Positions 17,739-58,010 of a stretch of 64,000 nt of DNA are shown in pieces. The stretch lies in contig NZ_LGAP01000027.1 in assembly GCF_001270265.1 (NCBI RefSeq), forward strand, positions 1-64,000, in the 5' to 3' direction. Source of the stretch: Ensifer adhaerens (GTDB taxonomy: Bacteria; Pseudomonadota; Alphaproteobacteria; Rhizobiales; Rhizobiaceae). The notes under the pieces were generated by a model that was given only the letters and a program-made list of their open reading frames with translations, searched no databases and was not told the DNA's origin. The position numbers were made by a program, and so were the translations under genes. How positions within the stretch are numbered: position 1 is the first letter of the stretch; each line of letters starts with the position of its first letter.

Positions 17739-19259
17739 TCAGGCGGCGACGATGTTCTGCTCGGCGCGCGCCTGGAGCGCCTTCCTATCGATCTTGCCTG
17801 TCTTGCCGTGGGGAAGCTCGGTTTCGAAGTAAATCGTCCGCGGCACTTTGAAGTCTGCCAATTTCTGCTCAAGGAAGGCGATGAGATCGTCAGCCGCCAA
17901 ACTCGCGTTGGCGCGCAGGACGACAAACGCAATTGGAACTTCTCCAAAGATGCGGTCCGCGATTCCAACGACCGCAGTGTCCTGCACAGCCGGATGGCTC
18001 ACGATGGTTTTTTCGACCTCTGCCGGAGAGATGTTGTGGCCGCCGCGGATGATGATGTCCTTGATCCGCCCCACAATGTAATAGAACCCATCCTTGTCAC
18101 GCATTACGAGGTCACCGGTGCGAAATAGGCCGTCTTTCAACGTTGCTGCGGTCAGTTGTTCGTCCTTCGCGTAGCGTTTGACGGTCGCTGCTCCGCGTAC
18201 GAACGCCTCGCCCGGTTCGTCCGGTCCGCAGTCGTAACCATCCGCGTTCAATATTTTCACAGTTGCTCCAGGCGCAGCTTTGCCAATGGCGCCAGGTGGC
18301 AGCGCAGCGGGGTCATCGTGGTAACGACCAAAAACCGGCGTGACTTCAGTCAACGCGTAGTAGTTCTGCAACGGTTTTCCGAACTTGGCGACGAACCGCG
18401 CCGCCACTTCGTCAGGCAGAGGCGCGCCCGAGCAAACCAAGAGGCGGGTCGCGGAAAGATCGAATGTCAGGTCACGTTGTTCACAATACTCCATCATCAT
18501 GGAGAACATCGTCGGCACGCCGTGGTAAACGCTCACGGCATAACGTCCAAAGGCCTCGAGGACGTCACGAGGATGGAAGCGGCGCAGGAGGACAACAGTC
18601 CCTCCCGCCGCCAGCGCCGTAGCCGATGCCGTAGAAAGGCCGAAGAGATAGCCTAGCGGCAATGCGACGAGCGTCGTGTCCGACTCTCCGATACCCCACA
18701 TCGTCGCAAGTGAAGCCGCCACATCGATCTGGGCCCGCTGATCGAGTACCACCGCTTTCTGATTTCCGGTGGTTCCGGACGAGTAGGTGATGATGAAATC
18801 GTCGTCCAAATCGATGTTTGCATGCGGCTCCTCGCCCTCGGAGGGTGCTGCGAGCAGCTCGGATACATGCAAGAGTTTCTCGGCGGGCACGGCTTGCCTC
18901 GCTGTTTCCTCCACATGGTCGTCGAAGAAGAGAACCTTGGCGTCGCTGTGCTTGAAATTGTAGCCCACCTCTGCGGCGGTGAGATTGGGATTGACCGGGA
19001 CGAACACAGAGCCGGTCTTTGAAGCAGCGTAATAGCAGAACAAGTGTTCCGGATGGTTTTGCCCGTAGACGGCAAACACATCTCCTTTGCCTATGCCCAG
19101 CGATTTGAGGCGGCGGATGACCTGTTCAATTCGCTGCAGCAGCGTTGCATAAGTTATCGCGTCCCCTTCGTAGACGATCGCGACCTTGTCCATGCGGTTC
19201 TGTGCTGCGGCGGCGAGTGCATTGAAGACCGACGTTGATGTTGGCCGATGGTGTTCCAT
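17739..19259 (-). CDS. AMP-forming acyl-CoA ligase
   Basis: An ANL-superfamily ligase (506 aa) that converts a carboxylate, ATP and CoA to acyl-CoA, AMP and pyrophosphate. The P-loop is FIITYSSGTTGNQKAVV (about residue 150), followed by a YHGVPTMF segment, the adenylate-binding YYALTEVTP, the hinge GRIKDIIIRGGHNISPAEVE, and the C-terminal catalytic lysine in GKTGKIDRKAL (about residue 489). Specificity resembles malonyl/short-chain or fatty-acid-type ligases, but the pocket cannot be read safely. It is co-transcribed with the amidase and a deacetylase-like hydrolase. AMP made here could be recycled by the adenylate kinase at 36442-37020, which shares the regulon. Confidence 0.92.
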   Translation of the reverse strand: MEHHRPTSTSVFNALAAAAQNRMDKVAIVYEGDAITYATLLQRIEQVIRRLKSLGIGKGDVFAVYGQNHPEHLFCYYAASKTGSVFVPVNPNLTAAEVGYNFKHSDAKVLFFDDHVEETARQAVPAEKLLHVSELLAAPSEGEEPHANIDLDDDFIITYSSGTTGNQKAVVLDQRAQIDVAASLATMWGIGESDTTLVALPLGYLFGLSTASATALAAGGTVVLLRRFHPRDVLEAFGRYAVSVYHGVPTMFSMMMEYCEQRDLTFDLSATRLLVCSGAPLPDEVAARFVAKFGKPLQNYYALTEVTPVFGRYHDDPAALPPGAIGKAAPGATVKILNADGYDCGPDEPGEAFVRGAATVKRYAKDEQLTAATLKDGLFRTGDLVMRDKDGFYYIVGRIKDIIIRGGHNISPAEVEKTIVSHPAVQDTAVVGIADRIFGEVPIAFVVLRANASLAADDLIAFLEQKLADFKVPRTIYFETELPHGKTGKIDRKALQARAEQNIVAA

Positions 19260-21963: not shown

Positions 21964-21996
21964 TACCAATAGCGCCTTTTTGCGTACCTGTAAGTA
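21964..21996. promoter_or_regulatory. Island operator pair E1 (RidA promoter)
   Basis: TACCAATAGCGC at 21964 (good left half only) and TACCTGTAAGTA at 21985-21996 (full consensus, within TGCGTACCTGTAAGTATGCA) start 21 bp apart, 66-98 bp from the RidA start. Confidence 0.7.
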
Positions 21997-23806: not shown

Positions 23807-24574
23807 ATGGATATCGTTGTATTGATCAAGAAGGTCCCTGATCCAAACCTCCCGGAGCAATTTGTATCAATCTCCGACGCTCAGGACGAAGTGGTCCTGC
23901 ACGCCTCGTCACAGTATTCGATCAACCTCTACGACTTGAACGCTGTCGAAGCGGCGATCGGCCTCAAAGAATCCGCCGGCGCGACGGTAACTGTCGTGAC
24001 CGCCGACGATGCTTCAGCGGATCAGTATCTTCGCCGCGCCTTGGCTATGGGCGCGGACAATGCAATCCGTGTCGAACTCGACGACAAGTCTCGCCGCGAC
24101 TCGTTCAAGACAGCGCAAGCACTCGTCTCCGCACTCAAGCAGAAGAGCATACCTTCACTGGTTATCGCGGGCCGTCAATCTTCGGACGAGGACGCCGGAT
24201 ACGTCCCGTACCTTGTAGCGCATGGCCTTGGCATTCCGGCTCTCGCTCCGATCGTGTCGATTAAATCGGCCAGCGAGCGAACCATCAACGTCGGCAAACT
24301 CGCGGATGCAAGCATTGACGAATATGAGCTCACCCTGCCTGCGATGCTGCTGGTCTCGAACGAAATCAACAAGCCTAGAACTCCCGGCCTGAAAGGCGTC
24401 ATGGCGGCGAAGAAGGCGACGATTGAAGTAGTCGCCTCCGAACCCGGCGGCGTTGCCGGCGTACCGTCCAAGTACTCGCCGAAGAAGGGACAGCGAGCCA
24501 TAGAGGCAACCAAGTTCATTGAAGGCAGCGACGAAGACAAGGCCGCGGCCCTCCTCGCAGCTCTCGATAAGTGA
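23807..24574 (+). CDS. Electron transfer flavoprotein beta subunit (dedicated type)
   Basis: The small ETF subunit (255 aa), which holds the AMP/FAD domain interface and accepts electrons from flavin dehydrogenases. MDIVVLIKKVPDPNLP, LNAVEAAIGLKESAGATVTVVTAD and YLRRALAMGADNAIRVE are typical. The sequence is clearly different from the housekeeping-like EtfB at 38742-39491, which begins [14 protein letters not shown]. It belongs to the divergent ETF group often found beside specific dehydrogenases. Nine bases separate it from etfA, and an operon with the MaoC gene before it and the FAD enzymes after it is likely. Confidence 0.93.
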   Translation: MDIVVLIKKVPDPNLPEQFVSISDAQDEVVLHASSQYSINLYDLNAVEAAIGLKESAGATVTVVTADDASADQYLRRALAMGADNAIRVELDDKSRRDSFKTAQALVSALKQKSIPSLVIAGRQSSDEDAGYVPYLVAHGLGIPALAPIVSIKSASERTINVGKLADASIDEYELTLPAMLLVSNEINKPRTPGLKGVMAAKKATIEVVASEPGGVAGVPSKYSPKKGQRAIEATKFIEGSDEDKAAALLAALDK

Positions 24575-24583
24575 GGCATCGAC

Positions 24584-25531
24584 ATGAAGAACGCCCTCTT
24601 CGTACTCCATAATTCCGCAGACACAAGGTCATCCGAATTTGCCACTCTCGCTGCTATTGCGACGTCGATCGGCAATGCAGGTTACTCCTCGGATCTCCTT
24701 ATCCTGGACACGACCGGTTCATCGAGTGTCAACGTCAAACACGGCAGCGCTTTTCGCAATGTAACTGCGGTTGCTCCGGACAAGGCCGTGGGCGATGGTG
24801 CCGATTACCTGGTCCACATTGTCGGTAAGGCAGCGTCCGCAGCTGTCTCGCTCGTCGTTGGTTTTGGAACGATTTCGAACAGAAACTGGGCACCCCAAGT
24901 CGCCGCATCCTTTTCGGCCGAGTTTGTGACCGCCTGCGAGCTTATCGAGGTCGCGGACAACGCGCTCCGCGTTACGGGGCCGGTGATGGGGGCTATGGTT
25001 CAGAAGACCCTGTCCCTGGGCGACCGAAACGCAGTCGTGCTGTACAGCGGCGAGAACCTCGCCGCACCTGAAGGCACTGACATCGTTGTTGAAGTCTCCC
25101 GGGAACCCGCAGAGCAAGGGGCTGTCCGCTTTGTCGCCTCCGAAGCCTTGCCAGATAGTGGCGGCATTCCTCTCCGCGGAGCGAGCAAGGTCATTTCGGG
25201 TGGACTGGGAATTGGCTCGGGTGAAAAGTGGCGGCTCATCGAGGAATTCGCAGCAAAGGTCAACGCTGCAGTCGGAGCGAGCCGCGCAGCCGTCGAAATG
25301 GGCTGGGTACCCTCTTCTCGTCAGGTGGGCTTCAGCGGGCAGAAAGTCAGCCCAGACGTGTATGTCGCAGTCGGCATTTCCGGTGCAGTGCATCATCTGG
25401 CAGGCATTGGAGGTGCCAAAAAGATCGTCGCGATCAACAAGGACCCCGAAGCCAGCATCTTCAAAATTGCTGATGTCGGAATCGTCGGCGACTACGAGCA
25501 GATCGTCGCGGCGGCCATGCGCAAGCTTTGA
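24584..25531 (+). CDS. Electron transfer flavoprotein alpha subunit (dedicated type)
   Basis: The large ETF subunit (315 aa). The C-terminal FAD-binding domain shows VISGGLGIGSGEKWRLIEEFA, then [41 protein letters not shown], and HLAGIGGAKKIVAINKDPEA, which is the ETF-alpha signature. It forms a heterodimer with the preceding EtfB and passes electrons to ETF-quinone oxidoreductase. Its immediate followers are the two FAD subunits at 25663-28295, the most likely electron donors. Length is normal. Confidence 0.94.
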   Translation: MKNALFVLHNSADTRSSEFATLAAIATSIGNAGYSSDLLILDTTGSSSVNVKHGSAFRNVTAVAPDKAVGDGADYLVHIVGKAASAAVSLVVGFGTISNRNWAPQVAASFSAEFVTACELIEVADNALRVTGPVMGAMVQKTLSLGDRNAVVLYSGENLAAPEGTDIVVEVSREPAEQGAVRFVASEALPDSGGIPLRGASKVISGGLGIGSGEKWRLIEEFAAKVNAAVGASRAAVEMGWVPSSRQVGFSGQKVSPDVYVAVGISGAVHHLAGIGGAKKIVAINKDPEASIFKIADVGIVGDYEQIVAAAMRKL

Positions 25532-25662
25532 CCGCAAATGCGCGCGAGGCGCGTTCTTCGGTATTCTTTCGGGCTGAGCATGTTCCTCGACGCTGCTCCG
25601 CCCGGAAGAGATAAACTAAACACGATCGGCTACCGCAGCGGGGTCGTAAGGGGTAATTGGAA

Positions 25663-27129
25663 ATGAGCGGCAAGCGTATAGTCGTCGTAGGAGCAAGCAG
25701 ACTGGGATGCGAGTTCGCGTTGGCAGCCCGCGGAGCCGACTACGAAGTGACGCTGATCGATGAGCACCCGCAAGAGCTCAAAAACATGTCATTCGATGCT
25801 CCGTATTTTTACGGATCCGGTCTGCCGGCATCGCTCAGCGATGAAACGGCGGTGTTCGACAACGTGCTAAGCTCAAACGAGCTATTGCTGGAGTGCGTCG
25901 AAAACGAAGTCGACGTGAAGATCGGAGTGGTCGCTTGGGGTGCATTTCACAATGCGCCAAATTCGCAACATATTGGCACCCCGAAAGTGGGTATAGTCTC
26001 CCGCGAAGGCAACGAACTTCTGGAATACGATGCTCTCATCCTCGCGACAGGGTCGCGGGATTTTGTGCCTTCGTTCAAGGGTTGGGAGTTGCCCGGAGTT
26101 CTCGGCGGCAAGGCCGGAGCAAAGCTTCTCACATCCTACCAATGCTTCAACGGCACCCGCTGTCTTGTGCTGGGAACGGCCCCTCTGGCGGTCGAGTTCG
26201 CGCGTGCAGCCTGTGACCGCGGTATCGATATAGCGGGCTTCGTGGAACCGACCTCCAAGTTCCAGGCGGGCGATCAAGAACTTGAATGGGCGCTGAACGC
26301 CGGTATTCCGATCCTGTATGAGAGCGTTATCCTCGAAGCTGGGGGGACCGACAAGGTTTCGTCAGCAACGGTAATCTCGACGGATGGCTCCGGAAAGCAG
26401 GCAGAGGTTGAATGTGACACCATTTGCGTCTCGATCGCGGTTCTTCCAAACGTCGAACTACCTGCAGCGATGGGCTGTGAGATGCAGTTTGCTGAAGAAC
26501 ATCCAGCTTGGGTGCCGAAGGTAGATTCTAACCTGCAGACTAGCGTACAAGACGTATACTGGCTCTCCGCGTTCAACGCGCAAGACGATCAGATCCCGCG
26601 GATCCTCTCGGCGGTCGGCGACGCAGCCAGTGCATCGGAAGCACCGACCGGAACCACTCAGCATGGCGCGCGCGCCGCGGATTACATCAATGTTTGGGTC
26701 GCCAAGCTCCTGGAGATGGGCGGCTCGGACGTGGTGCTTTGCCAGTGCGAGACTGTGACACGCAGTGAATTTCTCGAACTACAACCGCCGCGGTACCTCA
26801 AAGCCGGCATGAGGCATCCGCACGTGGCCGTGACCGGCGGCGACGCCGGACCCAAGATCAGCCAGGATCTGACAAAGCGAATGACCCGTGTCGGCATGGG
26901 ACATTGCCAGGGCAAACGCTGCCGCGACGAGGCTGCCGTTCTGCTGTCTCAGCATTATGGGATACCGCTCAAGGACATCAAACCCGGTAGCTATCGTTTT
27001 CCCGTAAGGCCGATCGACATGTCTCTGATCGCGGCCGAGGACGACGATTATCACACCCGTGAAAAATGGCCGCACTGGATGCACGAGGAAGTGGTGCCAG
27101 AAAGCGTTGCAGGGACTGCAAAGAGGTAG
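25663..27129 (+). CDS. FAD oxidoreductase with BFD-like [2Fe-2S] domain (HcnB/opine oxidase A type)
   Basis: A 488-aa flavoprotein similar in layout to the alpha subunit of opine/nopaline oxidase and hydrogen cyanide synthase HcnB. The N-terminal FAD site is RIVVVGASRLGCEFALAA. ALILATGSRDFVPSFKGWELPGV marks the pyridine-nucleotide-reductase fold, with a second dinucleotide motif CLVLGTAPLAVEF. A BFD-like domain follows, with cysteines in VLCQCETV (CxC) and MGHCQGKRC (CxxxxC). The ATG at 25663 has AAGGGG upstream; a TTG two codons earlier is less likely. It is two bases ahead of the DAO-type partner, so together they probably make a heteromeric amine dehydrogenase that feeds the ETF encoded just upstream. 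Confidence 0.87.
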   Translation: MSGKRIVVVGASRLGCEFALAARGADYEVTLIDEHPQELKNMSFDAPYFYGSGLPASLSDETAVFDNVLSSNELLLECVENEVDVKIGVVAWGAFHNAPNSQHIGTPKVGIVSREGNELLEYDALILATGSRDFVPSFKGWELPGVLGGKAGAKLLTSYQCFNGTRCLVLGTAPLAVEFARAACDRGIDIAGFVEPTSKFQAGDQELEWALNAGIPILYESVILEAGGTDKVSSATVISTDGSGKQAEVECDTICVSIAVLPNVELPAAMGCEMQFAEEHPAWVPKVDSNLQTSVQDVYWLSAFNAQDDQIPRILSAVGDAASASEAPTGTTQHGARAADYINVWVAKLLEMGGSDVVLCQCETVTRSEFLELQPPRYLKAGMRHPHVAVTGGDAGPKISQDLTKRMTRVGMGHCQGKRCRDEAAVLLSQHYGIPLKDIKPGSYRFPVRPIDMSLIAAEDDDYHTREKWPHWMHEEVVPESVAGTAKR

Positions 27130-27131
27130 AA

Positions 27132-28295
27132 ATGATGAATTACGATGTGATCGTCGTCGGGTCGGGCCTCCTCGGACTTTCCACCGCCTATCATGCGCAA
27201 AAAGCCGGTGCGCGTGTGCTCGTCATCGATCGCGGCGCGGTCGCTTACGAGGCCTCCTCCCGAGCAACAGGCTATCTGAGCTTGCGAGCGGATGACCCGG
27301 ACGAAGCTCCCCTCGCCGGCATGGCGGAGAAGCTTTGGGACACGTTGGACGAAGAGCTTGGATACCCGACCGAATGGACCCAGAAGGGCCGATTGTGGGT
27401 GGCGTTCTCCGACAAACAACTCGAAGAGCTCCATCAGACTTACAAGGCTTTCACCAGAGCCGACTTCGGCTTCGAGCTCATTGACGCCCAGGCTTGCCGC
27501 GAGCTCATTCCGATCCTTTCACCGGAAACGCGTGCCGGGCTTTACACCCCCCGATCGGGGCACGCCAATCCTCAGCGGGTTTCGCAAGCTTACGCATGGG
27601 CGTTCCAAGATTATGGCGGGACAATACTCGAGCACACACCCGTGTACTCGGTTATCGCGGAGGGAGGAAAAGCAAAGGGGGTCAAGACCGCCGCCGGCGA
27701 TATACTCGCCGATCGCGTCGTTCTATGTGCTGGCGGATACAACGCGAATCTTCTTGAACCGTTCGGCGTTGTCTTCCCCGTGGCAACCGTCCGGCTCGAG
27801 GCATTGGTAACCACTCCTCTACCTCCGATGTATGAGGTCGGCTTCATTGGCCTGAATGGTCTATCTATCCGGCAGACCAAGCGCGGCAACCTGCATGCCA
27901 ACGGCGGTCCGCACGAATGGGTGGATTTGGACGCCGATATCGAACCGAACAAACCAAATACGCCGATCGTACGGAACCTGGTTCGCCGTATGATCGAAGC
28001 GTTTCCGGTTGCAAAGGGGGCCCAACTACTGCGCACTTGGGCCGGGGTCCTGGACATCACCCGGGACCAGAAGACCATCATTCACCGTTTCGATCACCCG
28101 GAGGGCCTCCTTGTCGCGGCTGGTGCCGGGCATGGGTTTGGGATGGCGCCGGCGATCGGAATAGCGATGGCGGAGCTCGCCTTGAAAGGACACACGAGCG
28201 CGCCCATCGAGGGGCTAAGCCTTGAGCGTTTCGCCGGTCTATCGCCAACCTGGAAAGCGGAAAAGAAGTGGGATGCAGGTTCCTACAACACCTGA
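27132..28295 (+). CDS. DAO-type FAD oxidoreductase (HcnC/opine oxidase B type)
   Basis: A D-amino-acid-oxidase/sarcosine-oxidase-fold flavoprotein (387 aa) that should remove hydride from a C-N bond of an amino acid, N-methyl amine or opine-like adduct. The FAD site is YDVIVVGSGLLGLSTAYHAQ, followed by ASSRATGYLSL and the terminal RTWAGVLDITRDQ and VAAGAGHGFGMAPAIG motifs. Two ATG codons stand in tandem at 27132 and 27135 after AGAGG. The start is two bases after the stop of the BFD-domain partner, implying translational coupling and a complex. The substrate is not known. Confidence 0.9.
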   Translation: MMNYDVIVVGSGLLGLSTAYHAQKAGARVLVIDRGAVAYEASSRATGYLSLRADDPDEAPLAGMAEKLWDTLDEELGYPTEWTQKGRLWVAFSDKQLEELHQTYKAFTRADFGFELIDAQACRELIPILSPETRAGLYTPRSGHANPQRVSQAYAWAFQDYGGTILEHTPVYSVIAEGGKAKGVKTAAGDILADRVVLCAGGYNANLLEPFGVVFPVATVRLEALVTTPLPPMYEVGFIGLNGLSIRQTKRGNLHANGGPHEWVDLDADIEPNKPNTPIVRNLVRRMIEAFPVAKGAQLLRTWAGVLDITRDQKTIIHRFDHPEGLLVAAGAGHGFGMAPAIGIAMAELALKGHTSAPIEGLSLERFAGLSPTWKAEKKWDAGSYNT

Positions 28296-28395: not shown

Positions 28396-28427
28396 TACCG
28401 TAAGGAACGAAAACATACTGAGAAAGG
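28396..28427. promoter_or_regulatory. Island operator pair G (TetR gene promoter)
   Basis: TACCGTAAGGAA at 28396 and TACTGAGAAAGG at 28416 each keep a perfect left half and start 20 bp apart. They lie immediately upstream of the TetR start at 28434, as expected for weak autoregulation. Confidence 0.55.
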
Positions 28428-28433
28428 TGTCGT

Positions 28434-29075
28434 ATGGACATGGAATCGCAGCGCGAGTCACCAAAGCCGAACATTCGTGGCAGGATCAAGCAGCAGAAGA
28501 CCGAGCTTATCCAGGAAGAAATTCTTGACGCCGCTTCTCGGCTCATTGCGGCGCGCGGCTTCCGTGCGGTGACCGTGGACGACATCAGTGCTGAGATGGG
28601 TTTCACCAAGTCCATCGTCTACTACTACATGAAAAACAAGAACGAGATTCTCTGGCGGATCTTCGAGAAAATTGACCAAACCTACGCCAAGGGCATGGAA
28701 GGGGCACTGAGTTCCGGTGGCACCCCCACGGAACTGCTGTCGAAAATCGTCAAAATGCACTCACTGAACGTGATGCTGCACCAGGAATGGTCCACGATCT
28801 ACAACCGCGACGAACACGAACTGACAGAAGACCAGCGCTCCAATGTCACCGCGAACCGCCGGAAGTACAACAAACAAATCCAGGAGCTCTACGCGCAGGG
28901 TATCGCAGCCGGAGAGTTCCGCGACACTGACCCGTTCCTTGCTGTGTCTTGCCTGATTGGCGCATGCAACTGGCCTTACACCTGGTTCAGGCGCTCCTCG
29001 TCCAAATACAGCGCCGAGGAAGTTGCATCGGCGTTCGCCGACCAACTTATCAAGGGTGTTGCGAAGGGGGCATGA
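28434..29075 (+). CDS. TetR-family regulator (candidate master repressor)
   Basis: A 213-aa TetR-type repressor. The helix-turn-helix lies at residues 22-68: IQEEILDAASRLIAARGFRAVTVDD, then SAEMGFTKSIVYYYMKNKNEIL. The C-terminal ligand domain (residues 75-210), with CLIGACNWPYTWFRRS, resembles the KstR2-type group that senses acyl-CoA. It sits 138 bp after the amine-dehydrogenase genes, has an operator pair in its own promoter, and lies centrally in the island. This makes it the best candidate for binding TACY-N4-RGTA throughout. Which ligand releases it is unknown; a CoA thioester made by the pathway would fit the subfamily. The ATG at 28434 has AAGG seven bases upstream. Confidence 0.9.
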   Translation: MDMESQRESPKPNIRGRIKQQKTELIQEEILDAASRLIAARGFRAVTVDDISAEMGFTKSIVYYYMKNKNEILWRIFEKIDQTYAKGMEGALSSGGTPTELLSKIVKMHSLNVMLHQEWSTIYNRDEHELTEDQRSNVTANRRKYNKQIQELYAQGIAAGEFRDTDPFLAVSCLIGACNWPYTWFRRSSSKYSAEEVASAFADQLIKGVAKGA

Positions 29076-29955: not shown

Positions 29956-30744
29956 TTATTGAATCGTCCAGCCTCCGTCGATAACGAGCGAATGCCCCGC
30001 CATGTAACCAGCGTGAGGGGAAGCCGCAAACATGATCGCGTTCGCGATATCCAGAGGTACCCCCTTTTTGCCCGCCGGGACTCGCTTCAGCGCATCAGGA
30101 TTTACACCGACGCCGCGAGCCATGTCCGGGGCGTCGTCCCCGAGAATTCGCGCAGAATTCCCCCGCATATCGGTCTGAATCATGCCAGGGCAGACCGCAT
30201 TGATGACCACGCCCGTCTTTGTGAACTCGACAGCCATTTGGCGAGTGAGACCGATCACGCCGAACTTCGAAGTGGTGTATGCCAAGCCGTCCGCACCACC
30301 GAGAATACCGCCAACGGAAGCGACATTAACGATACGGCCTTCTCCCCGAGCCACCATGTCCTTCAGCACTGCACGGCAGAAGTAGAACGTGCCCCGGAGA
30401 TTGGTATTGATCACCCTCTCCCACAATGCGTTCGAAGTCTCGAGCGCTCCCGCAAAACCGTCAAACACGGAAGCGTTGTTAACGAGAACGTCGATCCGAC
30501 CGTGCTTGGCTGTGACCGAAGAGACAACGTTGTCGATCGAACTCTCCTGCTGGACGTCCGTTCTGATGAAATCAACGTGATAGCCTTCTGCCGCAAGCGA
30601 CTGGACCACGTCTTGACCCTGGTCCTCGAGAAAGCCGGCGATGGTCACGTCCGCCCCAGCGCGAGCAAAGGCTTCCACAGTCGCTCTTCCGATACCGGTC
30701 TCGCCACCCGTTATAACGACTACTTTTCCTTTAAAGTCGAACAT
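29956..30744 (-). CDS. Short-chain dehydrogenase/reductase
   Basis: A classical SDR (262 aa) with cofactor motif VVITGGETGIGRATV (TGxxxGxG, residues 10-20), NNASVFDG, the catalytic serine in NVASVGGILGGADG and the YTTSKFG Tyr/Lys pair, then VCPGMIQTDM. It oxidises or reduces an alcohol/ketone with NAD(P); substrates of similar enzymes include 3-hydroxyacyl-CoAs and polyols. It is divergent from the nitronate monooxygenase operon, with the operator cluster H1 in its promoter. It could provide the 3-hydroxyacyl oxidation step after a hydratase, but that is inference. Confidence 0.9.
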   Translation of the reverse strand: MFDFKGKVVVITGGETGIGRATVEAFARAGADVTIAGFLEDQGQDVVQSLAAEGYHVDFIRTDVQQESSIDNVVSSVTAKHGRIDVLVNNASVFDGFAGALETSNALWERVINTNLRGTFYFCRAVLKDMVARGEGRIVNVASVGGILGGADGLAYTTSKFGVIGLTRQMAVEFTKTGVVINAVCPGMIQTDMRGNSARILGDDAPDMARGVGVNPDALKRVPAGKKGVPLDIANAIMFAASPHAGYMAGHSLVIDGGWTIQ

Positions 30745-31053: not shown

Positions 31054-32211
31054 GTGCTTGCCCATAACCACCTAAGCGTCGGAGGGCCGGAGTTGCAAAC
31101 TGAATTGACAAAAACGCTCGGTATCGAGTTGCCCATTTTTGCATTCTCGCATTGCCGCGATGTCGTGGCAGCCGTGACCAAGGCGGGAGGCATGGGATCG
31201 CTTGGAGCGGCCTGGATGACACCCGAAGAATTCGAGATGTCAATCGACTGGATCGAGGAGCGCGTCGATGGCAGGCCATTTTCGGTGGATCTGGTTTTTC
31301 CGGGTACAGGCGGCGAGGACGCAGAGAAAACCCCGGACGAATATCGCAAGCTCATCCCGAAGGATCATCTAAACTTCGTGAAGCGTCTGCTCGACGATGC
31401 TGGGATCGCCGACATCTCGGAGGCGGACCGTGACGCCTATCTCGCCGAATATGCCGAGAAGATGGCCATGACCAACAAGAAGAGCCGCGAACAGCTCGAG
31501 ATCGCCTTAAGCAAGAAATCTGTGAACTTCATTGTGGGCGCTCTCGGCGTCACGCCGGAATGGGTTGTTAAGGAGGCCCATGCCAAAGGCGTAAAAGTCG
31601 GCGCGTTGGTGGGGAACGGAAAGCACGCGGCCAAGCAGCGGGCTGCAGGTGTTGACGTCCTAATCGCACAGGGCACCGAAGCCGGAGGAAGTGTTGGAAA
31701 CATCGCTTCCATGGTTCTCTGGCCACAGGTCGTGGAGGCGGCTCAAGGCATCCCCGTACTGGCCGCTGGTGGCATCACCCGCGGATCGCATATTCTGGCC
31801 GCGCTCGCACTCGGTTGCCAAGGCGTGTGGATGGGCTCGCTCTGGCTAGGAACAGCGGAAAGCGACCTTAGCCTGGAAATGCGCGAGAAGCTGTTCGCTG
31901 CCGCCTCGGAAGACGCGCGACTGTCCAAGGCCATGACAGGTAAACAGGGCCGCATGCTGTACACCAAGTATGTGGACGCTTGGCACCGTCCGGACGCTCC
32001 CAAACCCCTCGATTGGCCGATGCAGTCGATTATGAACGGCTACCCGTTCAAGCGAGCTGAACGAGGGCGCAACCTCGACTACTGGACCTATTCTGTTGGC
32101 CAGGCCGTCGGAGACATGAACGAGCACACCACCGTGAAGTCCGAGATTGAGCGCATGCTCAACGAATACGTCGAAGCGGTCGACAACCTGCAGAGCGTGA
32201 CCTCGTATTAA
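31054..32211 (+). CDS. Nitronate monooxygenase-like FMN enzyme
   Basis: A TIM-barrel FMN protein (385 aa) of the 2-nitropropane dioxygenase/nitronate monooxygenase family, which oxidises alkyl nitronates and related compounds; the enoyl reductase FabK shares the fold. Motifs are IFAFSHCRDVVAAVTKAGGMGSLGAAWM near the N-terminus, FIVGALGVTPEWVVKEAHAKG, and the FMN phosphate-binding LIAQGTEAGGSVGN and VLAAGGITRGSHILAALALGC. The branch with FAFSHCRD often occurs with CoA enzymes. The start could be the GTG at 31054 or the TTG at 31093, which has GGAGGG at ideal spacing and fits the family's beginning (LQTELT). It heads an operon with ETF-QO and the aminotransferase. Confidence 0.87.
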   Translation: MLAHNHLSVGGPELQTELTKTLGIELPIFAFSHCRDVVAAVTKAGGMGSLGAAWMTPEEFEMSIDWIEERVDGRPFSVDLVFPGTGGEDAEKTPDEYRKLIPKDHLNFVKRLLDDAGIADISEADRDAYLAEYAEKMAMTNKKSREQLEIALSKKSVNFIVGALGVTPEWVVKEAHAKGVKVGALVGNGKHAAKQRAAGVDVLIAQGTEAGGSVGNIASMVLWPQVVEAAQGIPVLAAGGITRGSHILAALALGCQGVWMGSLWLGTAESDLSLEMREKLFAAASEDARLSKAMTGKQGRMLYTKYVDAWHRPDAPKPLDWPMQSIMNGYPFKRAERGRNLDYWTYSVGQAVGDMNEHTTVKSEIERMLNEYVEAVDNLQSVTSY

Positions 32212-32324
32212 TCGAACTCGCGGACACGTCCCTACCGATTTTTCTGACGCGCCTAAGCGCAACGAATTGTTGGTTTGGACGCCAGATCTCCGAGTGCCCG
32301 TCCCTGCAAGTACGACGCTCGGAA

Positions 32325-32357
32325 GGGGCAAGCGACACGTCCGTTGTCGCTTGCCCC
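32325..32357 (+). terminator. Strong hairpin between the monooxygenase and ETF-QO genes
   Basis: GGGGCAAGCGACA and TGTCGCTTGCCCC make a perfect 13-bp stem with a 7-base loop. There is no U run. It may separate expression of ETF-QO from the gene before it, or be a relic carried in with the ETF-QO segment. Confidence 0.5.
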
Positions 32358-32421
32358 GCCCGTTCGTAGGCAAATGCCGGAACGCGTCGCCGGATCCAAT
32401 AACCTTTTGAGGCAACCGAGA

Positions 32422-34083
32422 ATGACCGAGCAAGATCTGCCCGAACGTGAGAGCATGGAGTTCGACGTTGTGATCGTGGGTGCGGGACCGGCGGGTCTTG
32501 CGGCGGCGATCCGGCTGAAGCAGGTCAATCCGGAGCTTTCGGTCGTCGTGCTCGAAAAGGGCGCCGAGGTCGGCGCGCATATCCTCTCGGGTGCGGTCGT
32601 CGATCCGATCGGTATCGACCGGCTGCTGCCGGACTGGCGCGCGGACGCGGACCATCCGTTCAAGACCGAGGTCACGGACGACCATTTCCTGTTCTTGGGC
32701 CCGGCCGGTTCGATCCGTCTGCCGAATTTCATGATGCCGCCGCTGATGAACAATCACGGCAACTATATCGTCTCGCTCGGCAATGTCTGTCGCTGGCTGG
32801 CAAGCCATGCCGAAGCGCTCGGCGTCGAAATCTATCCGGGCTTTGCCGCAGCGCAAGTGCTCTACAACGACGCGGGCGCGGTGATCGGCGTTGCCACCGG
32901 CGACATGGGCGTCGAGCGAGACGGCGAACCGGGCCCGAACTTCGCCCGCGGCATGGCGCTCTTGGGCAAATACACGCTGATCGGCGAGGGCGTGCGCGGC
33001 TCGCTCGCCAAAGAGCTGATCGCCAAATTCGGCCTCTCGAAGGACCGCGATGTGCCGAAGTTCGGCATCGGGCTGAAGGAGCTCTGGCAGGTGAAGCCGG
33101 AGAACCATCGGCCTGGCCTGGTGCAGCACTCCTTCGGCTGGCCGCTCGGCATGAAGACCGGCGGCGGCTCGTTCCTCTACCACCTCGAAGACAATCTCGT
33201 CGCCGTCGGCTTCGTCGTGCACCTCAATTACAAGAACCCCTACCTCGCCCCGTTCGAGGAGTTCCAGCGCTTCAAGACCCATCCGGCGATCCGCGGCACC
33301 TTCGAGGGCGGCAAGCGGCTGTCCTACGGCGCCCGGGCGATCACCGAGGGCGGCTACCAGTCGGTGCCGAAGCTGTCCTTCCCCGGCGGTGCGTTGATCG
33401 GCTGTTCGGCCGGTCTCGTCAACGTGCCGCGCATCAAGGGCAGCCACAATGCCGTCTTGTCGGGCATTCTCGCCGCCGAGAAGCTGGCGGCGGCGATCGA
33501 AGCGGGTCGCGCCAATGACGAGCCGATCGAGATCGAACGCGGCTGGCGCGACAGCGCCATCGGCCAGGACCTGAAGCGGGTCCGCAACGTCAAGCCGCTG
33601 TGGTCGAAGTTCGGCACGGCGATCGGCGTTGCGCTCGGCGGCTTGGACATGTGGACCAACCAGCTGTTCGGCTTCTCGTTCTTCGGCACGCTGAAGCACG
33701 GCAAGACCGATGCGCAGAGCCTCGAGCCGGCAGCGCAGCACCAGAAGATCGACTATCCGAAGCCGGATGGCGTGTTGACCTTCGACCGGCTGTCCTCGGT
33801 GTTCCTGTCGAACACCAACCACGAGGAAGACCAGCCGATCCACCTGCAGGTCAAGGACATGGAGTTGCAGAAGCGCTCCGAGCACGATGTCTATGCCGGT
33901 CCGTCGACGCGCTACTGTCCGGCCGGCGTCTACGAGTGGGTGGAGAAGGACGGCAAGCCGACCTTCGTCATCAACGCGCAGAACTGCGTGCACTGCAAGA
34001 CCTGCGACATCAAGGACCCGAACCAGAACATCAACTGGGTGCCGCCGCAAGGCGGCGAAGGCCCGGTTTATCCGAACATGTGA
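32422..34083 (+). CDS. Electron transfer flavoprotein-ubiquinone oxidoreductase
   Basis: The membrane-associated flavo-iron-sulfur enzyme (553 aa) that takes electrons from ETF and reduces ubiquinone. It has the FAD site FDVVIVGAGPAGLAAAIRL, the ubiquinone/membrane-contact region YHLEDNLVAVGFVVHLNYKN, GGYQSVPKLSFPGGALIGCSAG, and the C-terminal [4Fe-4S] motif INAQNCVHCKTCDIKDP. The ATG at 32422, with GAGG upstream, fits the family start. It is full length. Third codon positions are nearly all G or C, unlike the flanking genes, so it looks like a duplicate of a housekeeping gene brought into the island. It can serve both EtfBA pairs in the window. Confidence 0.95.
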   Translation: MTEQDLPERESMEFDVVIVGAGPAGLAAAIRLKQVNPELSVVVLEKGAEVGAHILSGAVVDPIGIDRLLPDWRADADHPFKTEVTDDHFLFLGPAGSIRLPNFMMPPLMNNHGNYIVSLGNVCRWLASHAEALGVEIYPGFAAAQVLYNDAGAVIGVATGDMGVERDGEPGPNFARGMALLGKYTLIGEGVRGSLAKELIAKFGLSKDRDVPKFGIGLKELWQVKPENHRPGLVQHSFGWPLGMKTGGGSFLYHLEDNLVAVGFVVHLNYKNPYLAPFEEFQRFKTHPAIRGTFEGGKRLSYGARAITEGGYQSVPKLSFPGGALIGCSAGLVNVPRIKGSHNAVLSGILAAEKLAAAIEAGRANDEPIEIERGWRDSAIGQDLKRVRNVKPLWSKFGTAIGVALGGLDMWTNQLFGFSFFGTLKHGKTDAQSLEPAAQHQKIDYPKPDGVLTFDRLSSVFLSNTNHEEDQPIHLQVKDMELQKRSEHDVYAGPSTRYCPAGVYEWVEKDGKPTFVINAQNCVHCKTCDIKDPNQNINWVPPQGGEGPVYPNM

Positions 34084-34112
34084 TCAACGACGTCCCGATT
34101 GAGGAGTTGGAA

Positions 34113-35393
34113 ATGTCGAATGCTGAAGTCGCCACGCGCCGTGCCAGCGCTGTTGCCCGCGGCGTGGGCGTCACCACCCAAGTTTATGCCGATCGCGCGG
34201 AGAACGCAGAGATATGGGATATCGAAGGCCGCCGATATATCGATTTCGCAGCCGGGATTGCCGTCGTCAATACCGGACACCGCCATCCCAAGGTAATCGA
34301 AGCCGCGAAGGCACAGCTTGAGCGCTTCACGCATACCTGTCACCAGGTTGTTCCCTACGAGAACTATGTGCGCCTCGCAGAGAGGTTAAACTCCCTCGTC
34401 CCGGGTGACTTCAAGAAGAAAACCATCTTCGTCACGACGGGCGCGGAGGCAGTCGAAAACGCAGTCAAGATCGCTCGAGCAGCCACCAATCGATCGGCCG
34501 TCATCGCCTTTACCGGTGGTTTTCATGGCCGCACCTTTATGGGCATGGCTCTTACGGGCAAGGTGGCTCCGTATAAAACCGGGTTCGGCGCGATGATGGG
34601 CGACATCTTCCACGTCCCCTTCCCGGTCGAATTACACGGCACTTCAGTCGACGATTCACTATCCCTTCTCGACAAGCTGTTCAAGGCCGACGTCGACCCT
34701 AACCGGGTCGCAGCGTTCATTGTCGAACCGGTTCAAGGTGAAGGCGGTTTCTACGAGGTCCCGCGTGATTTCATGCGGAAGCTTCGTGAGCTTGCGGACA
34801 AGCACGGAATCCTTCTGATCGCTGATGAAGTGCAGACGGGCTTTTCGCGGACAGGCAAGTATTTCGCGATGGAGCATTTCGACGTTGTCGCCGACCTGAC
34901 GACCATGGCTAAAGGACTTGGCGGTGGTTTCCCGATCGCCGCTGTCACCGGCCGCGCCGAAGTCATGGATGCTCCGGGTCCTGGCGGCCTCGGCGGCACC
35001 TACGGCGGCAATCCCGTAGGAGTCGCGGCTGCCAATGCGGTATTGGACGTCATCGAGCAAGAAGACCTGAATGGACGCGCAGACCTACTCGGACGCCGTT
35101 TGAAACAGGGTCTCCGCTCCCTGCAAGATGCCGTACCCCAGATCGCTGACATTCGCGGCATAGGCTTCATGATAGCCGCTGAGTTCAACCTACCAGGCTC
35201 CACGACGCCAAATCCCGAATTTGCGAACGCCGTTCGACAGAAAGCATTGGACAAAGGACTTATCCTTTTGACCTGCGGCGTGCACGGCAATGTTATCCGC
35301 TTCCTCGCTCCCATAACGATATCCGACACCGTCTTCAGCGAAGCTGTCGACATCCTCGACAACGTTTTGCGCGAATGCGCTAAGGATACGTGA
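34113..35393 (+). CDS. gabT: 4-aminobutyrate-type class III aminotransferase
   Basis: A PLP-dependent omega-amino-acid aminotransferase (426 aa), moving the terminal amino group of GABA or a similar omega-amino acid to 2-oxoglutarate. It shows DIEGRRYIDFAAGIAVVNTGHRHP, FVTTGAEAVENAVKIARAAT, FHGRTFMGMALTGK, IADEVQTGFSRTGKYFAMEH, and the PLP lysine in TTMAKGLGGGFPIAAV, followed by GGTYGGNPVGVAAA. All match GabT. The ATG at 34113 follows GAGGAG. It is 29 bp after ETF-QO in the same operon. With beta-alanine from the PanD-like enzyme or an omega-amino acid from the amidase it could make a semialdehyde for the aldehyde dehydrogenase at 41016-42440. Confidence 0.92.
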   Translation: MSNAEVATRRASAVARGVGVTTQVYADRAENAEIWDIEGRRYIDFAAGIAVVNTGHRHPKVIEAAKAQLERFTHTCHQVVPYENYVRLAERLNSLVPGDFKKKTIFVTTGAEAVENAVKIARAATNRSAVIAFTGGFHGRTFMGMALTGKVAPYKTGFGAMMGDIFHVPFPVELHGTSVDDSLSLLDKLFKADVDPNRVAAFIVEPVQGEGGFYEVPRDFMRKLRELADKHGILLIADEVQTGFSRTGKYFAMEHFDVVADLTTMAKGLGGGFPIAAVTGRAEVMDAPGPGGLGGTYGGNPVGVAAANAVLDVIEQEDLNGRADLLGRRLKQGLRSLQDAVPQIADIRGIGFMIAAEFNLPGSTTPNPEFANAVRQKALDKGLILLTCGVHGNVIRFLAPITISDTVFSEAVDILDNVLRECAKDT

Positions 35394-35950: not shown

Positions 35951-36445
35951 TCAGCGCCTGAACGACAATAGTTTCGTCAGCACCGATCCAGTGCCCTCGG
36001 GAACCGGCAAATCTCGCTGGGATTCGAAAATCTTCGCGATCTCTGACAGCATTACCGCAGATGCGGGTTCGACCTTCGTTTTGCGAACATGGATGGACAG
36101 ATGCTCGCCTGTCGCGAGCAGTTCCCCGCCGACATTATACAGCCTGTGCCAAATATGCAGGCGTTTTTCATCATAGCCCAACAGTTGGGTTTCGGTCCAA
36201 AGTTCGGTTCCCACCTTAGACTCGGCGCGATGTCGAATGTGAGTCTCCAGAGTAAAGAACGCGCCCGCCTCGGCGTTGGCGAAGTCAACCCCGATACGTT
36301 CATAAAGAGCGTCCGACGCTTCCCCGAAAACCTGCAGGTATCGATGCTCCGTCATGTGGCCATTGTAATCAAGCCATTCGGGCAGAACGACACCGCGCCA
36401 AAGCCTTAACGGCTGGTTTGTCTCGTGATCGACGGTCGCCGTCAT
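35951..36445 (-). CDS. Hot-dog acyl-CoA thioesterase (betainyl-CoA thioesterase-like)
   Basis: A 164-aa 4HBT-type thioesterase that hydrolyses acyl-CoA. The active-site motif VLPEWLDYNGHMTEHRYLQVF contains the catalytic Asp-x-x-GH segment, followed by FFTLETHIRHRAESKVG and TQLLGYDEKRLHIWHRLYN. These stretches resemble the thioesterase part of carnitine-degradation enzymes (CdhB, betainyl-CoA thioesterase), which suggests a quaternary-amine acyl-CoA. It starts inside the last codons of the adenylate kinase gene (4-bp overlap), so the two are translationally coupled. Confidence 0.83.
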   Translation of the reverse strand: MTATVDHETNQPLRLWRGVVLPEWLDYNGHMTEHRYLQVFGEASDALYERIGVDFANAEAGAFFTLETHIRHRAESKVGTELWTETQLLGYDEKRLHIWHRLYNVGGELLATGEHLSIHVRKTKVEPASAVMLSEIAKIFESQRDLPVPEGTGSVLTKLLSFRR

Positions 36446-37020
36446 GAAAGTGCCTCGAGGATGTCCACGGTTACCTGATCTACGGCACCCATTCCGTTGA
36501 TGGGAATCAGCCGATTCTGATTATGGTAGAAGTTAGAGAGAACAACCGTGTTTTCCCGGTAAGAGGCCATTCTTTTCCGGATCGTTTCGGGCGTGTCGTC
36601 CGAGCGTGGCGACTGTCCGTTGTTCAGGGCGTCCTGGGCGCGTTGCTCAACGCGCTTCACAAGGAGTTCCTCGTCGACAAGCAACTCAATCACCGCCGTC
36701 AGACAAAGCCGGCGTGATAAGAGGAGTTTGTCCAGCGATACGGCCTGCGCAACGGTTCTTGGAAATCCGTCCAGTATGAAGCCATCAACGGCGTCCGATT
36801 GCTGTAGGCGTTCCGCAACGCACCCGACCACGATATCGTCGCCAACCAGCCCCCCGGCATCCATAACGCTCTTAGCCGCGATGCCAACTGGGCTTTCGGC
36901 TTTGACGGCAGCCCTTAGCATGTCCCCGGTCGAGAGCTGTGGCACATTGAAGCGTTCAGAGAGACGTTGTCCCTGGGTTCCCTTGCCGGCTCCCGGTGGA
37001 CCAAGCATTACTAAGCGCAT
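36442..37020 (-). CDS. adk: Adenylate kinase (island copy)
   Basis: Converts ATP plus AMP to two ADP. At 192 aa it is the short type without the zinc LID. Motifs: the P-loop MLGPPGAGKGTQGQRL (residues 5-20), AMP-binding STGDMLRAAV, DGFPRTVAQA, and the LID arginines SDDTPETIRKRMASYRENT. An adenylate kinase in a catabolic operon is unusual; the housekeeping gene normally lies in the ribosomal-protein region. A sensible role is to recycle AMP from the acyl-CoA ligase at 17739-19259, which is in the same regulon. It overlaps the thioesterase by 4 bp and follows the cupin gene by 54 bp. Confidence 0.92.
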   Translation of the reverse strand: MRLVMLGPPGAGKGTQGQRLSERFNVPQLSTGDMLRAAVKAESPVGIAAKSVMDAGGLVGDDIVVGCVAERLQQSDAVDGFILDGFPRTVAQAVSLDKLLLSRRLCLTAVIELLVDEELLVKRVEQRAQDALNNGQSPRSDDTPETIRKRMASYRENTVVLSNFYHNQNRLIPINGMGAVDQVTVDILEALS

Positions 37021-37074: not shown

Positions 37075-37773
37075 TCATCGGTCACGACCTTCGATCTGGC
37101 ACCAGAGCATGACCAAAGGTTCGCGCGTACAGCGGATAGCGCATTGCCTCCCCGCGGCATTAAAGAGGACGTCGCCAGGGCCTGCGCTGACCCAACGATC
37201 GTTGCCAAAACGATATTCCCCAAATGACAAGGGTATAAAGACCCTGGAATGGAACTGATCGTGGTCTGGAAAACGCGTATACGACCCAAGCACCGTCATC
37301 CCGATACGAACATCCGTCCGATGTTCCACCGCGCCGGGACCAACAAGCAACGCGTGCCTATGGTTCTGCTCAAAGTTTATACTTGCGAACGCCCCCCCTC
37401 TTCCCGTGTACCATTCCAAACGACCAAAGACCGATTGAAGCCCCTCGGAGAACCTCTTGTAACCTTCCGAGTGCAGGGCGACGTTCGAGAGAACTTCCCT
37501 CGCCGCGTCGAGCAAGCATCCATCTGCTGTGGGGAGCGGGTCGACTCTAACGCGGCCCGGTCTCTCAAGCAGATGGATTATCTTTCCGATGTTAAACTTC
37601 GCCATCAACGGGGCTGAATCCGCTAGGAAAAGGTCGCCCATCGCGAGGACGACCTTTTGGAGGTCTGCTGGACGTCCGGCTGCTCGCTTGATGACTCCGG
37701 TACTTTCGAGCTTACCGGCGTCTTCGAGCAGAAGGTCCTCGCTCCGCTTCAATGCTGCATTGGAAGCTGCCAA
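37075..37773 (-). CDS. DMSP-lyase-like cupin protein
   Basis: A 232-aa protein with an N-terminal helical part and a C-terminal cupin resembling the DddQ/DddL-type dimethylsulfoniopropionate lyase family. Visible stretches are GMTVLGSYTRFPDHDQFHSRV, FIPLSFGEYRFGNDRWV, GPGDVLFNAAG and PLVMLWCQIEG. In DddQ the metal is held by two histidines in HxxxH, a tyrosine two residues on, and a later histidine. Here His171 and His175 are kept, but the tyrosine position appears to be Arg177 and the later position Cys211 (GRQCAIR). It may bind metal differently, act on another onium or betaine compound, or be non-enzymatic. It lies 15 bp after etfA in the same operon. Confidence 0.7.
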   Translation of the reverse strand: MAASNAALKRSEDLLLEDAGKLESTGVIKRAAGRPADLQKVVLAMGDLFLADSAPLMAKFNIGKIIHLLERPGRVRVDPLPTADGCLLDAAREVLSNVALHSEGYKRFSEGLQSVFGRLEWYTGRGGAFASINFEQNHRHALLVGPGAVEHRTDVRIGMTVLGSYTRFPDHDQFHSRVFIPLSFGEYRFGNDRWVSAGPGDVLFNAAGRQCAIRCTREPLVMLWCQIEGRDR

Positions 37774-38741: not shown

Positions 38742-39491
38742 CTAGAGAACGCTCGCTTCGGTCTTGAGCTTTTCGACGAGCTCGGTGACCGACTTGACCT
38801 TGATGCCTGCCTTGCGGCCCGACGGCTCCTCGGTCTTCAGTACCTTTAGACGGGCAGCGGTGTTGACGCCGAAGTCGGCCGGCGACTTCTTGTCGAGCGG
38901 CTTCTTCTTCGCCTTCATGATGTTTGGCAGCGAGGCGTAGCGCGGCTCGTTCAGACGCAGGTCGGTGGTGACGACCGCTGGCAGCTTGATGTCGATCGTC
39001 TGCAGACCACCGTCGACTTCGCGCACTACGCGTGCCTTGCCGTTGGATAGCTCGAGGGCAGAGGCGAAGGTTGCCTGCGAGGAACCAAGCAGCGCGGCAA
39101 GCATTTGTCCAGTCTGGTTCGAATCGTCGTCGATAGCCTGTTTGCCCACGAGAATGAGGCCCGGCTGCTCAGAATCGACGATTGCCTTGAGTATTTTGGC
39201 AACGGCGAGCGGTTCGACGTGGTCTTCGGTCTCTACCAGGATAGCGCGGTCGGCTCCCATGGCGAGGGCTGTGCGCAATGTCTCTTCGGCCTTGGCTGGG
39301 CCGATCGAGACAACAATCACCTCGCTGGCTTCCCCGCCTTCCTTGAGCCGCAGGGCCTCCTCGACCGAGATTTCGTCGAACGGGTTCATCGACATTTTCA
39401 CGTTGGCCAGTTCGACCCCCGAGCCGTCAGCCTTCACGCGGATTTTAACGTTGTAATCAACCACCCGTTTGACGGGAACGAGAATCTTCAT
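38742..39491 (-). CDS. etfB: Electron transfer flavoprotein beta subunit (housekeeping type)
   Basis: Second ETF beta subunit (249 aa), starting [17 protein letters not shown] at 39491. It carries the ETF-beta features [48 protein letters not shown] and the C-terminal recognition-loop region [22 protein letters not shown], which contacts dehydrogenases. This is the classical group found with beta-oxidation. The longer frame from 39542 runs into the promoter. It is the first gene of the operon etfB-etfA-cupin-adk-thioesterase, behind operator pair I. Confidence 0.94.
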
Positions 39492-39894
39492 GCTTGTCTC
39501 CATCCGGACTGTTCGGATTTGGCCAACCCCGGCACTCGGCACGTCGTTGGGCAGTCATATACGCATTAGTACAAACACATTCCTATTAGTACAATATTCC
39601 TTCCTGCACAATCTTGTTTTTTTTCTGCAATGTTCGTGCGCTATGAATTCGAACAATCACTGATCCCGCACCCGCCCCTCCTCGCGATTGGAACCCGTCG
39701 TCGTGACGGTTTATACTGGGCGCCGTTTCTCGAGAAATGCTGAGTCAACTCGATGCCTGCAAGGACGTGTTCAATCGAGTGAGTTCCAGTGTCCCTCCTT
39801 GATGAGCCCTTGTTCGATCGGGAGTTCGGAATGGAAGCTGGCCCTAAGGGGTGCCCTTTATCGCGGAGGGACGGCCATCTCCGTTCCTCCTCTG
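39492..39894. other. Promoter and gene-free spacer between etfB and the hydrolase gene
   Basis: This 403-bp stretch holds operator pair I and an A/T-rich promoter for etfB (39590-39640, with a run of eight T on the plus strand). From about 39660 to 39894 I see no gene; a long plus-strand frame that begins here and runs through the hydrolase gene is a shadow. Confidence 0.5.
39560..39591. promoter_or_regulatory. Island operator pair I (etfB promoter)
   Basis: TACGCATTAGTA at 39560-39571 (reverse complement of the D1 site) and TTCCTATTAGTA at 39580-39591 start 20 bp apart. They lie 70-100 bp upstream of etfB, in the A/T-rich promoter. Confidence 0.75.
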
Positions 39895-47540: not shown

Positions 47541-47555
47541 AGCGGATCACCTCCC

Positions 47556-57949: not shown

Positions 57950-58010
57950 TTGACACATTGTAGCCGCGATTTATCATGTACTCGTTAGTATAAAAAATAA
58001 CCGCTCGGTA
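57950..58010 (+). promoter_or_regulatory. Promoter with operator pair M (dppA-like gene)
   Basis: A sigma-70-like promoter is visible: TTGACA at 57950-57955, 16 bases, then TATCAT at 57972-57977. TACTCGTTAGTA (57979-57990, full consensus) covers the expected transcription start, and AACCGCTCGGTA (57999-58010) starts 20 bp later. This geometry suits repression by blocking polymerase. The divergent dppB-like operon may share the array. Confidence 0.8.

Follow-up and report, generated by a model that had tools for sequence, protein, structure and literature searches.

A TetR-family protein as the probable repressor of a catabolic gene island with tandem operator pairs in Ensifer adhaerens

A catabolic gene island of Ensifer adhaerens carries an array of paired dyads near its promoters, and comparison with related islands indicates that a TetR-family protein encoded among them, here called TetR-1, is very probably the binder and repressor of this array. 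The island lies in the window, by which we mean the whole stretch of DNA analysed, 64,000 nucleotides long (assembly GCF_001270265.1, contig NZ_LGAP01000027.1, positions 1-64,000, forward strand). Because TetR-1 and the pairs are kept together in relatives of the island, while the second TetR protein of the window (TetR-2) is not, it is very probably TetR-1 that switches the island. That these sites are most likely governed by TetR-1 had been the core claim of the initial annotation. Promoters of orthologues, patterns of co-occurrence, an island of a sister clade and a DNA-reading residue now support it; as a whole, the interpretation given in that annotation is partly supported. A literature search, conducted outside full texts, found no description of a TetR-1 regulon.

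Results

The features on which the argument turns are collected in Table 1. Within TetR-1, both domains of the family score well above their Pfam cut-offs (PF00440 TetR_N, 1.6e-12, 47.5 bits with the cut-off at 24; PF17932 TetR_C_24, 3.7e-25, 88.8 bits with the cut-off at 26.4), and no named TetR equivalog of NCBIfam is passed, the best reaching 63.4 bits where 250 are required. A single-sequence AlphaFold2 model has a mean pLDDT of 61.5, with residues 165-213 mostly below 50, and was left out of the reasoning. The open reading frame, the domains and the predicted operator agree with the earlier description of this gene as a TetR gene with an operator pair in its own promoter. The two dyads of that pair, TACCGTAAGGAA at 28396 and TACTGAGAAAGG at 28416, end 6 nt before the ATG. 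The pair is among the weakest in the set: when it is left out of the matrix it scores 10.5 bits, and of 4000 AT-rich control stretches taken from the Rhizobium leguminosarum WSM2304 replicon pRLG203, 30 score as high. In alignment, the block is kept in the tetR promoters of both pRLG203 and pRetMIM1e of R. etli Mim1. As read from the sequence, the right arm of the second dyad, AAAGG, is the presumed Shine-Dalgarno sequence, and this overlap may be why the second dyad deviates. A scan for sigma-70-type promoters recognised none upstream of tetR-1.

Table 1. Regulator genes, predicted operator pairs and a promoter in the window, with counterparts in related islands (bits, where given, from the window matrix)
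Feature	Start	End	Strand	Context or basis	Counterparts
Pair, offset 21	14406	14438		Between ABC ATPase (13226-14392, -) and enoyl-CoA hydratase (14497, +)	pRLG203, 23.6 bits
Pair, offset 21	20303	20335		Between polysaccharide-deacetylase-type gene (-) and isocitrate/isopropylmalate dehydrogenase-type gene (20335, +)	Before deacetylase gene in pRLG203 and Mim1
Pair, offset 21	22066	22098		Before citryl-CoA-lyase-like gene (22139, +); weaker second pair nearby at 21964	pRLG203 and Mim1
Pair, offset 21	23111	23143		Before MaoC (23219, +) and etf/oxidoreductase run	pRLG203 and Mim1
Tandem operator (predicted), offset 20	28396	28427		tetR-1 promoter, two dyads	
TetR-1, proposed repressor	28434	29075	+	213 aa, ATG start, TetR_N + TetR_C_24	
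Pair, offset 20	30870	30901		SDR side (29956-30744, -) of divergent SDR/NMO spacer	Equivalent position occupied in pRLG203 and Mim1
Pair, offset 21	30995	31027		NMO side (31054, +) of divergent SDR/NMO spacer	pRLG203, 28.4 bits; Mim1, 21.3 bits
Pair, offset 20	39560	39591		17 nt upstream of etfB (38742-39542, -)	pRLG203, 31.7 bits; Mim1, 29.3 bits
Pair, offset 20	42519	42550		Upstream of aldehyde dehydrogenase (41016-42440, -)	pRLG203, 30.8 bits; Mim1, 24.3 bits
Weak operator-like pair, offset 21	48874	48906		Spacer between sugar-type SBP (47556-48746, -) and TetR-2	
TetR-2, rival regulator	49039	49641	+	Homologue search, residue alignment	
Overlapping pairs	54047	54099		54047 offset 21, 54068 offset 20; near GMC oxidoreductase start (-)	Mim1, 27.7 bits; pRLG203, 14.0 bits (23/2000 controls)
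Sigma-70-type promoter TTGACA-16-TATCAT	57950	57977	+	11/12 match; promoter scan	
Pair, offset 20	57979	58010		Divergent promoter, permeases (57866, -) / solute-binding protein (SBP; 58028, +)	
Pair, offset 20	62401	62432		Amino-acid ABC permease (61487-62158, -) / hexapeptide-transferase-type gene (62651, +); 27.8 bits	Before Mim1 homologue, no pair of at least 13 bits

The unit of the array is the dyad TAC[TC]-N4-[AG]GTA, two copies of which stand at an offset of 20 or 21, and the matrix built from 22 window dyads reads A-T-A-C-(T/C)-N4-(A/G)-G-T-A-T. Of the 11 pairs that built it, ten are no more than about 130 nt away from a start codon. Counted with up to two mismatches, the window holds three pairs at offset 20 and five at offset 21, and eight in total at the remaining 34 offsets (14 to 49). 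We ranked 16,064 models of half-site, gap and offset de novo, with coding sequences masked so that noncoding DNA only was searched; this masked search covered the window, the pRLG203 island, a stretch of Rhizobium sp. NZLR1 and the genomes G064 and G586. In the window, TAC-N6-GTA at offset 20/21 ranked first of the 16,064 both at up to one mismatch (5 seen against 0.05 expected; p 5e-7, or roughly 0.009 once corrected) and at up to two (12 seen against 1.66 expected), and second at up to three, where GTA with gap 8 and offset 20/21 led. The masks were set by hand in the window (from the open reading frame and Pfam lists) and in G064 (from the open reading frame list), and the starts of the deacetylase, GMC and molybdopterin genes are therefore guesses. 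A motif search without masks was discarded, as codon periodicity and overlapping motifs dominated it.

The pRLG203 island is an independent test of the pair pattern. There, the same model again ranked first at one mismatch (p 2e-11) and at two, and at three it fell outside the top five, which were led by GGG with gap 8 and offset 50/51; at up to three mismatches, TAC-N6-GTA at offset 20/21 came first in none of the three islands (window, pRLG203, NZLR1). Across the whole 7.46-Mb genome of the window there are 11 strict pairs, eight of them in the window, and reversed-pattern controls found 4 and 12 places, so the clustering of strict pairs is unusual and their total ordinary. The binomial p of 5e-15 for this clustering is an inflated figure that overstates the case, because the pattern was derived from the same window. 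The array of paired dyads in the window is not a product of chance. TetR-1 had been placed in the middle of the array, which holds only roughly: the pairs span 14406-62401, and more are predicted past its end, on the contig near 67.7 kb (L066:3703) and near 84.8 kb (L067:837 and 858), with scores of 19-23 bits. Since the pair near 67.7 kb immediately precedes the gene for a 59% paralogue of the solute-binding protein encoded at 58028, the regulon may continue beyond the window. At the left edge of the window (47-1420) lies a DDE transposase-type open reading frame.

Orthologues of TetR-1 are found in pRLG203 (RLEG2_RS32480, 85%), in pRetMIM1e (77.5%) and in a Rubellimicrobium metagenome-assembled genome (L016; 65%), and large gene blocks of the first two are collinear with the window. 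When the matrix, trained on the 11 window pairs only, was applied to 21 orthologous promoters, p was below 0.01 in 19 of them, the remaining two giving 23/2000 and 35/2000; the 21 exclude site 62401, site 48874 (no orthologous spacer) and the L016 promoters other than those of tetR and the SBP gene. Strict pairs in the 308,747 bp of pRLG203 number nine, eight of which fall in the island, and the ninth stands outside it, directly before the best match (68%) of the SBP at 58028. That SBP gene sits at 33.4-34.9 kb, a long way from the permease genes, and separate pairs (34952 and 283508) serve the two places, so that the split is a natural experiment set against the shared promoter at 57979 in the window. 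If the threshold is relaxed to 13 bits, further matches appear in pRLG203 outside the island, for example at 58172, 181243, 211924 and 303040. In Rubellimicrobium, which belongs to a different order from Rhizobium, a strong pair at 6195 occupies the spacer common to tetR and a divergent SDR gene (0/4000 controls), a weaker one at 6281 lies closer to tetR, and the orthologue adjoins counterparts of the SDR, ADH, GMC, ABC and SBP genes. The top pair of the Mim1 stretch (L019:4011 on pRetMIM1e, 30.5 bits) is located about 90 bp before a gene for a methyl-accepting chemotaxis protein, hinting at chemotaxis towards the substrate.

The same islands bear on a LysR-type regulator (7245-8159), which might control the island with the dyads acting as sites like the T-N11-A motif of LysR proteins. 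A 63% relative of it is indeed present in the pRLG203 island, but at E<=1e-10 there are no matches in the Mim1, NZLR1 and L016 stretches, no pair of at least 13 bits precedes the LysR gene in its upstream spacer, and the dyad itself is T-N10-A with a strict spacing to its second copy rather than T-N11-A. We regard control by this protein as scarcely credible.

A sister island, on p5 of Rhizobium sp. NZLR1, encodes a 39% relative of TetR-1, WP_221166899.1, and probably uses a different half-site. In the masked search, GAC-N6-GTC with offset 20/21 led there at one mismatch (p 6e-6) and at two (1e-7), and AAC with gap 10 and offset 20/21 led at three. The 50-kb stretch contains six strict GAC-N6-GTC pairs, every one outside annotated genes, and a seventh pair of GAC type with offset 22 before its own tetR; the same stretch has no strict TAC pair, and the window matrix finds one match of at least 13 bits (13.3 bits). 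Between the TAC and GAC clades the spacing is thus retained and one base of the half-site is altered. The presumed base-reading residues are invariant in all six aligned proteins, from both clades, and so do not explain the change from T to G. For the 42-43% relatives in G064 and G586, the masked search returned no significant model at offset 20/21. With up to two mismatches, G064 has one GAC-type pair, in noncoding DNA, and G586 has two, both within script-called open reading frames, one of which is short, lies upstream of the tetR run and may be spurious; as a shared operator trait these pairs are suggestive at most.

The shift of operator type along with the TetR-1 clade also argues against an unlinked chromosomal regulator that reads the sites in all strains, as does the Rubellimicrobium orthologue, which has pairs as well although it comes from another order. 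Such a protein would have to be a global regulator with few other targets, given that eight of the 11 strict pairs of the genome lie in the window. In WSM2304 and Mim1 the search covered plasmid DNA, and the window's own genome holds 14 further TetR-like matches (E<=0.001), which leaves some room for such a regulator, but we consider this explanation very unlikely.

Co-occurrence points back to TetR-1. At E<=1e-40, its homologues are present in three of 397 genomes of the order (the window's own, G064 and G586), and a citryl-CoA-lyase-like marker at the same threshold is present in the identical three; with the own genome left out, the marker accompanies a TetR-1 homologue in 2 of 2 cases among 396 genomes (p 1.3e-5). 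Three of 72,556 plasmid records carry the lyase (E<=1e-60), and the same three rank highest for TetR-1; five weaker TetR-1 matches (28.6-31.7%) are without it. Beyond the own genome, only G064 was matched in 385 genomes of the class (E<=1e-35) and in 101 genomes of relatives and 16 of the genus (E<=1e-30); at most 5-8 candidates per genome were scored in the searches of the class and of the order. A pattern-based scan of genome contigs matched 16 stretches, one of which was a relative. Co-occurrence alone is not proof of regulation, because linked genes move together. Strict TAC pairs are absent from two regions, in pRL12 and WSM1689, where a related ETF/cupin module lies by another TetR gene, and from a Limimaricola region with a 47% SBP relative. 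The initial annotation had asked whether operons with the sites occur where the orthologue is lacking, and none was found, in a small sample of three regions.

TetR-2 had been put forward as the main rival, with an operator in its divergent spacer. It does lie inside the island and the operator-like pair does exist, but the pair is weak (13.1 bits, equalled by 72 of 4000 control stretches) and no homologue turned up in the other island stretches searched, which leaves TetR-2 short of a strong rival. At E<=1e-10, none is found in pRLG203 or in the searched Mim1, NZLR1 and L016 stretches; at E<=1e-25, one of the 397 genomes of the order has it, its own, with at most eight candidates scored per genome; and in the 72,556 plasmid records (E<=1e-20), eight carry 37.6% relatives, all of them from Arthrobacter or Paenarthrobacter. 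At the positions of Lys59 and Ser60 of TetR-1, moreover, TetR-2 has Leu and Ala, so the DNA-reading lysine is missing. A scheme in which TetR-2 acts as master repressor, with TetR-1 just one gene under its control, seems to us slightly less likely even than a chromosomal regulator; more probably TetR-2 regulates locally or is a passenger. Several of the plasmid relatives are of tobacco or nicotine origin. For the sugar-type ABC block beside TetR-2 (44962-48746), the other sequences compared gave no match to its SBP and only 25-33% matches to its ATPase. It is not annotated beside the orthologous genes in pRLG203 and Mim1, and the molybdopterin gene may be transcribed from its promoter.

Discussion

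What the computation shows is where the sites lie, how they are spaced and that they are conserved along with TetR-1; binding, repression, cooperativity and an inducer we infer, in the following form. TetR-1 would act as a dedicated repressor of the catabolic island and of its own gene, with one dimer on each TAC[TC]-N4-[AG]GTA dyad. The distance of 20 or 21 bp from one dyad to the next amounts to two turns of the helix, which would place neighbouring dimers next to each other on the same side of the DNA, perhaps cooperatively. Bound there, they would be expected to block transcription, since the pairs are near start codons and the pair at 57979 directly follows a -10 box; with a gap of one base between that box and the operator, the latter would cover the likely transcription start. 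It is also conceivable that TetR-1 binds the sites as an activator, or requires a co-repressor as DarR does. The TetR-1 operator matches that of DarR, whose binding is enhanced by nucleotides (PMC10636190), and an adenylate kinase gene is located in the island (36442-37020). However, the placement of the 57979 pair is a blocking position and the own pair of TetR-1 stops just short of its start codon, which makes this variant unlikely, if less so than the rival regulators.

As a repressor, TetR-1 would be released by an intermediate of the pathway, for which a CoA thioester is the likeliest candidate. Among the products of the island are an AMP-forming CoA ligase (17739-19259), an enoyl-CoA hydratase, MaoC proteins and a protein of citrate-synthase type, with relatives that carry the annotation citryl-CoA lyase; the pathway thus probably runs through CoA esters. 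MbdR and KstR2 respond to CoA esters (PMC4424350; PMC5380842), but the C-terminal match of TetR-1 to KstR2 is poor and DarR, which shares its operator, binds cyclic nucleotides. We put the chance that the inducer of TetR-1 is a CoA ester at about even. The window also contains, at 23807-28295 and 31054-35393, SoxA/SoxB-like oxidoreductases, ETF-QO and a class III aminotransferase, the island has two ETF pairs, and the islands of relatives are annotated with 4-aminobutyrate transaminase and succinate-semialdehyde dehydrogenase; an amine pathway via GABA is possible on these gene contents. Beside the etf genes lies a cupin of the DMSP-lyase family (37075-37773), which at E<=1e-20 is found in 131 plasmid records, 128 of them from Rhizobium; the two cupin regions that were viewed adjoin formaldehyde-detoxification genes and a different TetR.

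Taken further, TetR-1 may stand for a group of regulators of such islands, so far without description, that recognise two complete dyads spaced by two turns of the helix, that have moved between distant alphaproteobacteria with parts of a large mobile pathway, and that answer to a CoA-ester intermediate. As the spacing is kept while the half-sites drift between TAC and GAC, the tandem arrangement of dimers, and not the base sequence, would be the conserved trait. We offer this wider reading tentatively, at a little less than even chances. The practical value of the proposal for TetR-1 lies in a concrete, testable regulon, with one proposed repressor, a defined operator and about a dozen pairs over 48 kb of the window, and in a likely sensor for a pathway carried on conjugative Rhizobium plasmids. 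The TAC and GAC clades form a pair useful for studying the joint change of a repressor and its operators, and relatives of the island are available for experiments in sequenced Rhizobium strains. TetR-family repressors as such are already known; it is the tandem operator of two full dyads that is worth testing.

Among characterized systems, the initial annotation had likened the C-terminal domain of TetR-1 to the KstR2-type group, a likeness that finds no clear support. The mycobacterial HIP repressor KstR2, with HIP-CoA as its effector, is also a TetR repressor of a catabolic regulon (PMC5380842), and matches the whole protein weakly (6.5e-10). The C-terminal domain of TetR-1 alone (residues 81-213), however, matches KstR2 only at E = 0.15, and on this ground we do not adopt a specific kinship. 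Closer to that domain are 3dcf (4.5e-15), 3vpr (5e-9), 5k7f (2e-6) and DarR (4e-6). Of these, 5k7f is AibR (isovaleryl-CoA), and 3dcf is a TetR-family chain that is the nearest solved one to TetR-1 by sequence, with both domains covered (8.9e-29); to our knowledge, neither an operator nor a ligand is on record for it.

MbdR of Azoarcus sp. CIB, the regulator of 3-methylbenzoate degradation genes with a CoA ester as inducer, is similar in that it is a TetR repressor of a catabolic cluster with TAC/GTA half-sites and with operators that lie over promoters, including its own (PMC4424350). It differs in the pathway and in the distance between half-sites, 10 bp (ATACN10GTAT) as opposed to 6 here (PMC4424350), and its match to TetR-1 is only 3e-12. 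The closest parallel in DNA reading is DarR of mycobacteria and Rhodococcus, which binds c-di-AMP and cAMP and whose targets are efflux, fatty-acid and cold-shock genes (PMC10636190). Its published motif, ATACT(N4)AGTAT, equals the window dyad (PMC10636190), the whole-protein match to TetR-1 is 1.5e-19, and the recognition helix reads T-K-G-x-x-Y-Y in DarR and T-K-S-x-x-Y-Y in TetR-1. Two DarR residues make base contacts, Lys44 with the G that pairs with the C in every TXC half-site and Gly45 with the T, and a residue other than Gly at position 45 was suggested to prevent binding (PMC10636190). Lys44 is conserved as Lys59 in TetR-1, whereas Gly45 is replaced by Ser60, so that the base-contact pair is not fully present. 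The two systems also part in their architecture: two DarR dimers overlap on one 20-bp site (PMC10636190), while the island of TetR-1 presents two whole dyads, 20 or 21 bp apart.
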